Positions 28,043 through 33,264 of a stretch of 64,000 nt of DNA are shown piece by piece. Every line of letters starts with the position of its first letter. The stretch's first letter is position 1. The stretch is from an uncultured Sedimentitalea sp. (lineage in GTDB: Bacteria > Pseudomonadota > Alphaproteobacteria > Rhodobacterales > Rhodobacteraceae). Both the position numbers and the translations under genes were made by a program. The stretch lies in NCBI GenBank assembly GCA_947504115.1, contig CANNGH010000004.1, positions 1 to 64,000 of the forward strand, given 5' to 3'. The notes beneath the pieces are model-generated. The model saw nothing but the letters and a program-made list of their open reading frames with translations. It ran no database searches and was not told the origin of the DNA.

Positions 28043-28148
28043 GCGGCTGACTTAGCGCAGTCCGGGCCGGACGAAAAGTGCCGCAAGGCGCGGAACATAG
28101 GCTGAACATATCTTTAACTTCACACCTCGGCGCGTTAGATTGGGCCGC

Positions 28149-30509
28149 ATGAGCAGTTTCGATGATACCGAGGCACAAGCCATCCCGCTATCGGCGCGTG
28201 CCATGGCCGCCCGACCGCAACCCTATCTGGACGGGCTGAACCCGGCGCAGCGGACGGCGGTGGAAACGCTGGACGGCCCGGTTCTGATGCTGGCCGGGGC
28301 GGGCACCGGCAAGACCCGCGCCCTGACGGCGCGGATCGTGCACCTGCTGAATACCGGACGCGCCCGCCCGAACGAGATTCTGGCGGTGACCTTCACCAAC
28401 AAGGCCGCGCGCGAGATGAAAGAGCGCGTCGGCCAGATGCTGGGCCACAATATCGAGGGCATGCCGTGGCTGGGCACGTTCCACGCGATCTGCGTCAAGC
28501 TGCTGCGCCGCCACGCCGAACTGGCCGGGCTGAAATCGAATTTCACGATTCTGGATACGGACGACCAGCTGCGCCTGCTGAAGCAACTGGTTCAGGCGGA
28601 AGGGATCGACGACAAACGCTGGCCGGCGCGGCAATTGGCCGGGATCATCGACAACTGGAAGAACCGTGCCCTGACGCCGGACAGGGTGCCCGCCGCCGAT
28701 GCCGGGGCCTACAACAACCGCGCGGTGGATTTTTACGCGCAGTATCAGACCCGTCTGCGGGAATTGAACGCGGTCGATTTCGGCGATCTGCTGCTGCACA
28801 TGGTCACGATATTCCAGACCCACGAGGATATTCTGGCGCAGTACCAGCGCTGGTTCCGCTATATTCTGGTGGACGAGTATCAGGACACCAACGTCGCCCA
28901 ATATCTGTGGCTGCGCCTGCTTGCGGCGGGGCACAAGAATATCTGCTGCGTGGGTGACGACGATCAGTCGATCTATGGCTGGCGCGGGGCCGAGGTGGGC
29001 AACATCCTGCGCTTCGAGACGGATTTTCCCGGCGCGCATGTGGTGCGGCTGGAGCAGAATTATCGCTCGACCCCACATATCCTGGCCGCGGCCAGCGCCG
29101 TGATCGCTGGCAACGAAGGGCGGTTGGGCAAGACGCTGTGGACCGAGGCCGAGGAAGGCGAGAAGCTGCGCCTGATCGGCCACTGGGACGGCGAGGAAGA
29201 GGCGCGCTGGATCGGCGAGGAAATCGAATCGATGCAAGCCGGCACGCGCGGAATGCGTCCCGTTGATCTGGATGAGATGGCGATTCTCGTGCGCGCCAGC
29301 CACCAGATGCGCGCCTTCGAGGATCGGTTCCTGACCATCGGTCTGCCCTATCGCGTGATCGGCGGCCCGCGATTCTACGAGCGTTTGGAAATTCGCGATG
29401 CGATGGCCTATTTCCGTGTCGTCACCAGCCCCGAGGACGATCTGGCGTTCGAACGCGTCGTCAACACACCCAAACGCGGGCTCGGCGACAAGGCGCGGCA
29501 GACCATCCAGACCACCGCCCGCGCGAACCGCGTTTCACTGCTCGAAGGCGCGCGGATCGCCGTGGACTCGGGCCTTATCAAGGGCAAGGGCAGCACGGCG
29601 CTGGGCCAACTGGTCGGCGACATCGCGCGTTGGGGGCGAATGGCGGGCGACGCGGACCTGTCCCACATGGAACTGGCCGAGATCATTCTGGACGAATCCG
29701 GCTATACCGGCATGTGGCAGAACGACAAGACGCCCGAGGCGCCGGGGCGGCTGGAGAACCTCAAGGAACTGGTCAAGGCGCTGGAGCAGTTCGAGAATCT
29801 GCAGGGGTTTCTGGAACATGTCAGCCTGATCATGGACAACGCGCAGGGCGGGGACGGCGCCAAGGTCAGCATCATGACCCTGCACGCCGCCAAGGGGCTG
29901 GAGTTTCCTGCAGTGTTCCTTCCGGGATGGGAGGACGGGCTGTTTCCCAGTCAGCGCAGCATGGATGAGAGCGGGCTCAAGGGTTTGGAAGAGGAGCGCC
30001 GCCTTGCCTATGTCGGAATCACCCGCGCCGAGGAATTGTGCACCGTGTCCTTTGCCGCCAACCGTCGCGTGTTCGGGCAATGGCAATCGGCATTGCCGTC
30101 GCGCTTCATCGACGAACTGCCCGACGCCCATGTCGAGGTGCTGAGCCCGCCGGGCCTCTATGGCGGCGGATATGGTGCGGCGGGGCTGGGTGCGGCGGCG
30201 CCGGAACCCGAATCCGACCTGGCCGATCGCGCGGCGCGGGCGGATGGATACAATTCCCCCGGCTGGCGGCGGCTTCAGGCGCGCAGCCAGCAGCGCGGGA
30301 TGTCCCAGCCAGCCGAAAGCCGCAACAGCGTGATCGACCTGAACGCGGTTTCCAGCTTTACCGTCGGGCAGCGGGTGTTTCACCAGAAATTCGGCTATGG
30401 TGCCGTGACCGAGATCGAGGGCGACAAGCTGGAGGTCGCGTTCGAGAAAGCCGGGACAAAAAAGGTTGTCGCCCGCTTCGTGTCATCCAGCGACGATATC
30501 CCGTTCTGA
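28149..30509 (+). CDS. uvrD: UvrD/PcrA-type DNA helicase
   Basis: This 786-residue superfamily 1A helicase has all the classic motifs: Walker A AGAGTGKTRAL, motif Ia VTFTNKAAREM, motif II VDEYQDTNVAQ, motif III GDDDQSIYGWRGA, motif IV NYRST, motif V TLHAAKGLEFPAVFL and motif VI YVGITRAEE. A C-terminal Tudor-like segment (VFHQKFGYGAVTEIEGDKLE) binds RNA polymerase in homologues. The ATG at 28149 gives MSSFDDTEA; an in-frame TTG at 28140 is possible. It functions in nucleotide excision repair, mismatch repair and replication restart. It is divergent from the ZIP gene, with about 106 bases between. Confidence 0.95.
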   Translation: MSSFDDTEAQAIPLSARAMAARPQPYLDGLNPAQRTAVETLDGPVLMLAGAGTGKTRALTARIVHLLNTGRARPNEILAVTFTNKAAREMKERVGQMLGHNIEGMPWLGTFHAICVKLLRRHAELAGLKSNFTILDTDDQLRLLKQLVQAEGIDDKRWPARQLAGIIDNWKNRALTPDRVPAADAGAYNNRAVDFYAQYQTRLRELNAVDFGDLLLHMVTIFQTHEDILAQYQRWFRYILVDEYQDTNVAQYLWLRLLAAGHKNICCVGDDDQSIYGWRGAEVGNILRFETDFPGAHVVRLEQNYRSTPHILAAASAVIAGNEGRLGKTLWTEAEEGEKLRLIGHWDGEEEARWIGEEIESMQAGTRGMRPVDLDEMAILVRASHQMRAFEDRFLTIGLPYRVIGGPRFYERLEIRDAMAYFRVVTSPEDDLAFERVVNTPKRGLGDKARQTIQTTARANRVSLLEGARIAVDSGLIKGKGSTALGQLVGDIARWGRMAGDADLSHMELAEIILDESGYTGMWQNDKTPEAPGRLENLKELVKALEQFENLQGFLEHVSLIMDNAQGGDGAKVSIMTLHAAKGLEFPAVFLPGWEDGLFPSQRSMDESGLKGLEEERRLAYVGITRAEELCTVSFAANRRVFGQWQSALPSRFIDELPDAHVEVLSPPGLYGGGYGAAGLGAAAPEPESDLADRAARADGYNSPGWRRLQARSQQRGMSQPAESRNSVIDLNAVSSFTVGQRVFHQKFGYGAVTEIEGDKLEVAFEKAGTKKVVARFVSSSDDIPF

Positions 30510-31164: not shown

Positions 31165-31510
31165 GAAAACGGCGACGCTAGGGAGGAGGAGGGCGCCGCC
31201 GTTCTCTTACAACATCGCGGCGCAGGGAGGGAGGAGATTGCGCCACGGATGTATCCGGACCCGGTTTGGAAACCGGTATGTTTTGGCGGCGACATCCGGG
31301 AGGAGGTGGATGCCGCCGCTTGAGACCGGACCCGCCAGGGAGGAGGAGGGGCGGACCGGCCTTTCTCAACACTCTCGCGCAGGAAGGGAGGGAACCTGCG
31401 CCAGAATGCATCTGCTCCCGGATTGAACCGGGAATTTAGGGTGGCGACATCCGGGAGGAGGTGAATGTCGCCACCGACCGGACCCGCCAGGGAGGAGGAG
31501 AGGCGCGCCC
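31165..31510 (-). ncRNA. tandem array of candidate cuckoo/CcsR-type sRNAs (CCUCCUCCC hairpins)
   Basis: Downstream of the DUF1127 gene, the minus strand holds seven consecutive hairpins whose loops contain pyrimidine motifs of CCUCCUCCC type, plus two short hairpins without it. In order of transcription the stems are 31485-31505, 31440-31475 (perfect 11 bp, GGTGGCGACAT), 31377-31401 (7 bp, loop TTCCCTCCCTT, degenerate), 31326-31359, 31285-31318, 31219-31244 and 31171-31200. Small hairpins sit at 31416-31433 and 31261-31276. The last stem is followed by GTTTTCGC, a terminator-like tail. The segment 31441-31500 is repeated with changes at 31282-31345, so the array probably arose by duplication of a two-hairpin unit. 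In Rhodobacter sphaeroides, CcsR1-4 sRNAs with the same motif lie downstream of a DUF1127 gene (RSP_6037) and are processed from one transcript; this locus has the same architecture. I expect about three mature sRNAs. They would base-pair with GGAGG-like sequences of mRNAs. Exact ends are not readable from sequence. Confidence 0.8.
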
Positions 31511-31537
31511 GAATTGGTTGTCTCTTTTCGCGGTCGC

Positions 31538-31756
31538 TCAGCGACCCTGATATACTGCCTCGCGTGCAACGCTCGTGAGCGAGCAACGATCCAGCCCCAG
31601 ATCGCGCAACTCGCGGTCGTTCAGCACCGACAATTCGTTGACCGTCTGCCGAAAACGACGATAATCGACAAAGCGCCGCCCCAGCGATTGAATCGCTCCG
31701 ACCGTGCGGCCGAGCATCCCGTCATGCGCGGTGTTGGAATAGATTGTGTCACTCAT
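31538..31756 (-). CDS. DUF1127 small protein (CcaF1-like)
   Basis: This 72-residue basic protein ends in the DUF1127 helix-turn block RELRDLGLDRCSLTSVARE. I choose the ATG at 31756 (MSDTIYSNTAHDGMLGRTVG) because GAGG lies 9 bases upstream; an ATG at 31762 is also in frame but too close to that site. In Rhodobacter the homologous gene before the CcsR sRNAs encodes an RNA-binding protein that influences sRNA maturation and stability; the same role is inferred here. The stop is about 30 bases from the first sRNA hairpin, so both are probably on one transcript. Confidence 0.82.
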   Translation of the reverse strand: MSDTIYSNTAHDGMLGRTVGAIQSLGRRFVDYRRFRQTVNELSVLNDRELRDLGLDRCSLTSVAREAVYQGR

Positions 31757-31812
31757 CGTCATTTACCTCGGCATCATCGGCTGCGGCATCGGTGCCGCTG
31801 TCTGTTGCTGAC

Positions 31813-32666: not shown

Positions 32667-32702
32667 CGGCGGGTTGATCAGTGGCAGCGGATCAACCCGC
32701 CG
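32667..32702 (+). terminator. 13-bp inverted repeat in the mraZ leader
   Basis: CGGCGGGTTGATC and GATCAACCCGCCG form a perfect 13-bp stem with a 10-base loop, followed by TTTCC, 59 bases before mraZ. It could terminate transcription entering from the left or attenuate the dcw transcript. The tail is short in T, so efficiency is uncertain. Confidence 0.5.
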
Positions 32703-32760: not shown

Positions 32761-33264
32761 TTGGGGCGCAGGTTCAGGGGCGAAAGCCAGCACAAGGTAG
32801 ACGGAAAGGGCAGGGTGTCTATCCCGGCCTCGTTTCGTCGTGTGCTCGAAGCCTCGGACCCCAACTGGACCGACGGTCTGAACCCTGAACTTGTCATCGT
32901 TTACGGCGACCACCGCCGCAATTATCTTGAATGCTACACGATCGAGGCCATCGAGGAGGTCGATGCCAAGATCGACCGCCTGCCGCGCGGGTCCGTCCAG
33001 CGCAAGATGCTGCAACGGCTGTTTCACGGTCAATCCTTTCCCACCAATGTCGATGAAACCGGCCGGCTGGTCCTGCCCGCCAAGCTGCGCAACAAGATCG
33101 AACTGGAAGGCGAGGCGTTTTTCATCGCTGCCGGTGACACGTTCCAGATATGGAAGCCCGAAACCTACGAGACCGAGGAACTGGCCCGCACCGAGGCGTG
33201 GCTGGAGGAATTGCCCGACGATTTCGACCCGCTGGAATATCTCGACCGGGTACCCGAGGAGTAA
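32761..33264 (+). CDS. mraZ: transcriptional regulator MraZ
   Basis: This 167-residue DNA-binding protein with two MraZ/AbrB-like repeats regulates the dcw cluster in bacteria studied. The first repeat contains [16 protein letters not shown], the second [16 protein letters not shown]. The start is TTG at 32761 with AAGGGG 8 bases upstream; no ATG is available before the first repeat. It ends four bases before rsmH and starts the plus-strand dcw row. Confidence 0.95.

Follow-up and report, generated by a model that had tools for sequence, protein, structure and literature searches.

A small DUF1127 gene in the genome of an uncultured Sedimentitalea sp. is followed, on the same strand, by a tandem array of seven hairpins whose loops have anti-Shine-Dalgarno (anti-SD) character, and the locus is a well-preserved member of the known DUF1127–cuckoo (CIN1) type. 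It is recognized by its anatomy, its fold, an invariant loop carried on freely varying paired stems, conservation across the family and synteny. We place at about 0.87 the probability that the locus, which lies within the 64,000-nt stretch of DNA analysed here (the window), is a CIN1-type operon in which the DUF1127 gene is joined to a tandem cuckoo/CcsR 3′ UTR that acts as a source of anti-SD RNAs. In the mechanism that we propose, a stress-type promoter would give rise to a single transcript carrying both the gene for a DUF1127 RNA-binding protein and the tandem cuckoo/CcsR hairpins as its 3′ UTR. RNase E, aided by the DUF1127 protein, would cut this precursor in A/U-rich single strands past the B hairpins and thereby free small RNAs that each comprise two or three hairpins. 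The released CCUCCUCCC loops would copy the anti-SD core of 16S rRNA and pair with purine-rich ribosome-binding sites, lowering the translation of many mRNAs under stress, and the last hairpin would serve as a terminator too. For the promoter class, the processing, Hfq binding and target repression, we infer from work in Rhodobacter sphaeroides what is likely to hold here.

Anatomy and fold of the array

The product of the DUF1127 gene matches Pfam PF06568 (E 1.7e-10), and the gene lies, as originally predicted, directly before the array on the same strand, encoding 72 or 74 aa depending on the choice of ATG. The first hairpin starts 25 nt past the stop codon (the stop ends at 31538; hairpin A runs from 31512). 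The features, with bit scores from our own covariance model (described below), are as follows.

31762-31538 (-): DUF1127 gene (ccaF1-like); 74 aa when started at ATG 31762, 72 aa when started at ATG 31756
31512-31478 (-): hairpin A, loop CCUCCUCCC, module 1; 18.3 bits, outside the training set
31475-31440 (-): hairpin B, loop CCUCCUCCC, module 1; 40.8 bits, in the training set
31439-31435 (-): CTAAA, the short stretch preceding s; candidate RNase E site
31434-31415 (-): spacer hairpin s, small and motif-free
31409-31369 (-): hairpin C, variant loop CCUCCCUUCC (also given as CCTCCCTTCC); missed by the model
31362-31323 (-): hairpin A′, loop CCUCCUCCC; 22.9 bits, outside the training set
31319-31286 (-): hairpin B′, loop CCUCCUCCC; 45.5 bits, in the training set
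31285-31277 (-): A/U-rich CAAAACATA, preceding s′
31276-31261 (-): spacer hairpin s′, small and motif-free, from the centroid fold
31247-31216 (-): hairpin C′, variant loop CCUCCCUCCC (also given as CCTCCCTCCC); 12.3 bits, E 0.82 in the window
31206-31165 (-): terminal hairpin T, loop CCUCCUCCC; 37.4 bits, outside the training set

The seven loop hairpins that had been predicted on the minus strand are present at 31512-31165, in the order A-B-s-C-A′-B′-s′-C′-T, with the motif hairpins grouped 2-3-2 (A-B / C-A′-B′ / C′-T). Their loops are C/U-rich and anti-SD; where the original prediction counted six strong loops and one degenerate, there are five exact CCUCCUCCC loops and two variants (C and C′). 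The 64-kb window contains the exact motif CCTCCTCCC five times, always inside the same 318 nt of the array, compared with a mean of 0.55 in 100 dinucleotide shuffles, one of which reached five. Folding of positions 31537-31155 (383 nt) gave -183.5 kcal/mol, as against -134.9 kcal/mol (sd 5.2) for shuffled sequences (z = -9.3, with 0 of 100 as good). In the lowest-energy fold, long-range pairing of the 3′ arm of A with the 5′ arm of A′ replaces hairpins A and A′, a competition that arises because the block is duplicated; in the centroid fold every array hairpin is formed except A, which is left unpaired.

The segment A-B-s-C aligns end to end with A′-B′-s′-C′. The duplicated block therefore comprises four hairpins, one of them motif-free, and not two hairpins in an arrangement of their own, as had been thought, for the arrangement is common to a sister species. 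In that species (G001), whose DUF1127 orthologue is 68-69% identical, the hairpins follow the same order and the stem changes preserve pairing, as in hairpin B (loop CCCCCTCCC); the common order implies that the duplication is older than the split between the two species. The variant loop of hairpin C is identical in both. In a third member of the genus (G002), only two hairpins satisfy our detector, and the first A-B pair can no longer be recognized.

Hairpin T has a 14-position stem whose 3′ arm, GCCGTTTTC, ends in GTTTTC, and for this reason T probably doubles as a terminator. A simple σ70/terminator scan made no call on the array strand; it presumably passed over T because it allows only loops of 3-8.

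An invariant loop on freely varying stems

The covariation analysis drew on 85 listed hairpins that were fully or nearly paired, loci other than the window contributing no more than three each; these were reduced to 65 and then to 34 of one loop register, the last two cuts being made by hand. The loop of nine bases, CCTCCTCCC, does not vary across the 34 hairpins, and each of the 9 stem pairs differs among them at both of its positions, giving 30 further pair types; as the rows were picked by motif and pairing they are 100% paired by construction, and it is the variety of pair types alone that counts as evidence. The covariation score of the 34 was 0.913, compared with 0.236 for shuffles and at most 0.225 for a slid alignment.

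We built a covariance model from those 34 hairpins, to which the array contributed B and B′ as its only training rows. Applied to the array, the model matched T, A′ and A beyond its training rows, matched C′ weakly and missed C. In the 3.56-Mb genome to which the window belongs (150 of 985 first-look candidates scored), its matches at E ≤1, a threshold that C′ did not reach, were five hairpins of the array and a single site elsewhere. Among genomes of the family (here the family f1 of our search tool), at least 52 of 61 held a match at E ≤0.5. Rfam, searched across the window at gathering score, returned three tRNAs alone and no family at the array locus, so that membership in the cuckoo/CcsR family rests on published descriptions together with our own model.

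Six stretches with off-array matches of the model were fetched from other genomes. Two (L197 and L201) are further loci with DUF1127 and two hairpins, one (L202) is a two-hairpin module and three (L198, L199 and L200) are single hairpins; at the last four, the search for DUF1127 gave no match better than E 0.3. L197 and L201, from two genomes, have two tandem DUF1127-like frames followed by the two-hairpin module, away from the main array.

Relation to known systems

The original prediction had likened the layout to the R. sphaeroides RSP_6037/CcsR1-4 locus and read the loops as anti-SD, and both points agree with the published accounts (PMC10253847, PMC3927594) as far as their accessible text goes. 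There, ccaF1 (RSP_6037) is described as coding for an RNA-binding DUF1127 protein of 71 aa and as being transcribed together with CcsR1-4 (PMC10253847, PMC8625941) from an RpoHI/RpoHII promoter (PMC10253847). Maturation of the CcsR RNAs is attributed to RNase E and CcaF1 and their turnover to PNPase, and the RNAs are reported to affect the pyruvate dehydrogenase complex (PMC10253847, PMC8625941, PMC7866481, PMC8307010 for both); flhR mRNA is named as a target (PMC8307010), and the loop has been read as anti-SD (PMC3927594). Like ccaF1-CcsR1-4 (RSs0680a and its homologues), our locus has a small DUF1127 gene followed by CCUCCUCCC-loop RNAs and, probably, a terminator (PMC10253847, PMC3927594). 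The seven motif hairpins of the window, however, are grouped 2-3-2 and include two variant loops, whereas R. sphaeroides RS0680a is described with two motif stem loops (PMC3927594); four CcsR RNAs would by arithmetic give eight motif hairpins, the two loci being compared here by description.

The cuckoo family and its CIN1 locus (Reinkensmeier & Giegerich 2015, as cited in PMC10253847) are likewise characterized by a CCUCCUCCC loop, divergent stems and short DUF1127 proteins. Rhizobial RNAs are described with fewer hairpins, three or four in SmelA075 and SmelA099 (PMC3927594) and three in NfeR1 (PMC7143759), as compared with seven in one 3′ UTR here. Anti-SD loops are also described for the AbcR and MmgR sRNAs of Rhizobiales, and MmgR is linked with both PHB storage and the repressor PhaR/AniA; AbcR and MmgR belong to other families, however, and in the accessible text of the same sources they are not described as arrays behind DUF1127 (PMC7143759, PMC12542648).

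Conservation, neighbourhood and copy number

Of 295 family genomes, 232 contain two motifs spaced 24-54 nt from each other; the reversed control of this paired pattern occurs in about 47 of the 295 (counted by eye), in part through matches within true arrays. In a sample of the class the paired pattern occurs in 21 of 289 genomes, namely four family members that had been drawn and 17 others; with the reversed control at about 21 non-family genomes (again by eye), the pattern is near background outside the family. Three genomes of another family (f10) have sites similar to one another.

In the window, mraZ (Pfam MraZ; 32761-33264) and a gene for a UvrD helicase (Pfam; 28140-30509) flank the locus, both on the strand opposite to the array, and the frame between the array and uvrD looks by eye like an EamA-type transporter. 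Fourteen of 17 extended DUF1127 loci have an array, and of these 14, mraZ lies beside 12 and uvrD beside 11. Of the two array loci that lack mraZ, L057 is a second array copy and L062 is at a contig end. Neither mraZ nor uvrD is found at L059 (which has one stray hairpin), L065 or L066, the three loci that have no array. UpsM, in the mraZ leader of R. sphaeroides, was first named RSs0682 (PMC5089854), and the numbering RSs0680a / RSs0682 suggests that the CcsR and mraZ loci are probably neighbours there as well. A strong terminator-like stem lies at 32668-32701 (+), about 60 nt upstream of mraZ and near the place of the UpsM terminator, which in R. sphaeroides is given as 84 nt upstream (PMC5089854). 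When the DUF1127 protein was used to scan named genomes, the matches listed included two loci (Pontibaca salina and Mycobacterium sp. KBS0706); the relative in the record titled Mycobacterium sp. KBS0706 (L050) has no hairpins, and the label of that record may be doubtful.

We surveyed arrays in 78 sets (the window and 77 fetched loci) and kept 62, having dropped ten with fewer than three clustered motif hairpins and six that shared a hairpin with an earlier set. The 62 arrays have 3-24 motif hairpins with a median of 6, the lower limit being set by our rule and some loci being cut at about 3 kb. Seven hairpins are close to this median, and the copy number, which had been singled out as peculiar, is thus ordinary. 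The two small motif-free hairpins (s and s′) do exist as predicted but are not peculiar either: among the 91 gaps of 21-60 nt in the arrays that lack the motif, 82 fold into a hairpin with at least four consecutive pairs, compared with 40% of shuffled gaps. The usual module consists of an A loop, a B loop, a short linker and a small spacer hairpin. Strict alternation of motif-hairpin pairs with a longer motif-free gap is seen in 20 of the 62 arrays, the window not among them, and the opening 2-3 grouping of the window recurs in two other arrays (L118 and L120). In copy number and layout, then, the array is ordinary for its family. One array (L077; G191:C1:334949-335565), of 24 or more motif hairpins, consists for the most part of a three-hairpin repeat with nearly identical copies and has apparently been amplified recently.

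The single strand before the spacer hairpin has a median length of 8 nt and is 60% A+U, a value reached in 0 of 40 rounds of shuffling; the enrichment is modest, because the unpaired stretches of shuffled gaps are A+U-rich too (53%, sd 2). Such modestly A/U-rich linkers are compatible with processing by RNase E/CcaF1, and from the work in R. sphaeroides we take the linker to be a candidate RNase E site. The module rule and the range of copy numbers make both the processing and the dose effects of anti-SD RNAs testable.

Alternative readings and predicted targets

Hairpins at the 3′ end commonly stabilize mRNA, as is generally known, and the array, which lies directly behind the gene and closes with a terminator-like hairpin, could be a structured 3′ UTR that acts only in cis, protecting or terminating the DUF1127 mRNA, with its loops kept for a protein such as DUF1127 or Hfq. 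We think this quite improbable, as a terminator needs one hairpin and the counted arrays have 3-24, as stability does not call for a 9-nt loop that never varies and equals the anti-SD, and as flhR mRNA is reported to be a CcsR target in R. sphaeroides (PMC8307010). The specific CcsR target reported in that organism (PMC8307010) also argues against loops that serve as decoys, soaking up a shared partner (the DUF1127 protein, Hfq or SD sites) so that their total would set a global threshold for translation. A copy number that ranges from 3 to 24 while the loop stays fixed in exact-motif hairpins would suit such a role, but the variant C loop CCUCCCUUCC shared by the two species hints at distinct partners, and we regard the decoy role as unlikely. 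Tandem, partly duplicated hairpins might, finally, suggest a REP- or mobile-type palindromic repeat with no regulatory role. In this array, though, the stems vary and the loop is fixed, the opposite of the pattern expected of such a repeat; moreover, the genome has a single array and its neighbours are conserved in relatives, which makes a mobile origin hardly credible.

Under the favoured reading, in which the array yields anti-SD RNAs, candidate targets can be sought with GGAGGAGG, which is complementary to eight bases of the loop. With an ATG required 3-10 nt downstream, GGAGGAGG has 21 matches in the genome versus 5 for the reversed pattern; of the 21, two are the antisense of the array and two overlap. 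Five matches precede open reading frames that we judge real by frame and length, and these are predicted targets:

ATP synthase epsilon
DUF1330 protein
AMP-binding ligase
response regulator carrying an HTH of Fis type (Pfam)
protein of 501 aa or more that matched nothing in Pfam

Predicted loop duplexes at these five range from -16.0 to -19.2 kcal/mol. Pairing of the loop with the start region of the DUF1127 gene itself is weak (-5.5 kcal/mol) and so does not suggest self-repression at that site.

A conserved element upstream of the DUF1127 gene

Most of the interest of the locus lies in three by-products of the analysis, namely the module rule, a promoter element and a hairpin behind a phasin gene. 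The promoter element, which looks new, and its associated hexamers are located as follows.

31878-31825 (-): TGC/GCA element, CATGCACTTATCGCATACCCGGAATG (upstream half, diverged here) and ATTGTGCAGTTGCAGCA (31841-31825)
31840-31835 and 31819-31813 (-): promoter-like hexamers, -35-like TTGTGC and -10-like CTATCT(T)

The element is conserved ahead of the promoter-like hexamers in an alignment of 16 upstream regions, one of which (L072) was taken from an incorrect start codon and fails to align. The arrangement TTGTGC-16-TATCTT is conserved both in this alignment and at the fetched element loci; a σ70 scan made no promoter call on the DUF1127-array strand. Within the genome, ATTGTGCANNTGCRGCA occurs exactly only at this element, and with at most two mismatches at 20 sites versus 5 for the control. 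The exact form CTGCATNGCAGCATTG-N5-14-ATTGTGCA (the element is also written CTGCATRGCAGCATTG-N11-ATTGTGCA) is present in 44 of 149 family genomes and its reversed-pattern control in none; it is absent from the genome studied here, where the upstream half has diverged. Within 1.5 kb of each of the 30 fetched element sites lie two or more motif hairpins, and 25 of the 30 loci have a DUF1127 match.

Two candidate regulators were considered and set aside. Control by a LysR-type regulator such as VtlR was rejected since the reported VtlR box, GCAT-N3-TG-N3-T (PMC7486931), differs from the element seen. The element does contain the R. sphaeroides-style PhaR box, given as CTGCNNNGCAG (PMC12542648). 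In seven phaP promoters of the family, however, the third middle base is a pyrimidine in all 14 of the paired boxes, which are spaced 26-29 nt (three single matches to the box, lying further upstream, have G), whereas element sites before arrays have A or G in 45 of the 45 matches listed. On account of this difference, and of the diverged upstream half in the window, we rejected PhaR control of the array, retaining it solely within the proposal on carbon storage made below.

An anti-SD hairpin behind phaP

The one off-array match of the covariance model in the genome (E ≤1) lies between phaP (Phasin_2, E 7.8e-6) and phaR (PF07879) and, at 20.8 bits and E 0.16, is weak when taken alone.

G000:C5:113461-113433 (-): phaP-phaR intergenic hairpin (L157), in the genome that contains the window

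The hairpin, CGGCATCC-TTCCTCCTCCCA-GGGGTGCCG, has a CCUCCUCCC-type loop and is followed by a terminator-like stem. This phaP 3′ UTR anti-SD hairpin looks new: a search of the open-licence literature for phasins, sRNAs and Rhodobacter found no account of it, which is weak evidence, and the accessible text of a paper on UTR-derived sRNAs (PMC8625941) makes no mention of phasins. Nor did we find, in the open-licence literature, a published link of anti-SD array RNAs to carbon storage. The phaP hairpin and the promoter element suggest a way in which broadly acting anti-SD RNAs could be tied to carbon storage. We tentatively propose, as a possibility that we still hold to be doubtful, that the anti-SD system of these Rhodobacterales includes a second arm linked to carbon storage. 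This arm would consist of an sRNA derived from the phaP 3′ UTR, in parallel to rhizobial MmgR; the conserved TGC/GCA element would be an operator of the ccaF-array promoter, related to, yet distinct from, the PhaR box CTGCAT[A/G]GCAG, and PHB state and stress would jointly set the pool of anti-SD loops.

We compared phaP-phaR gaps from relatives and from the genome itself, using the 25 of 43 loci in which the phaP match ends before phaR and dropping the rest. By a loose definition, 15 of the 25 gaps contain an anti-SD-loop hairpin, seven of these with the full CCTCCTCCC, and only 11 of 1250 shuffled gaps (0.9%) passed the same definition. TCCTCCC is found in 17 of the 25 gaps.
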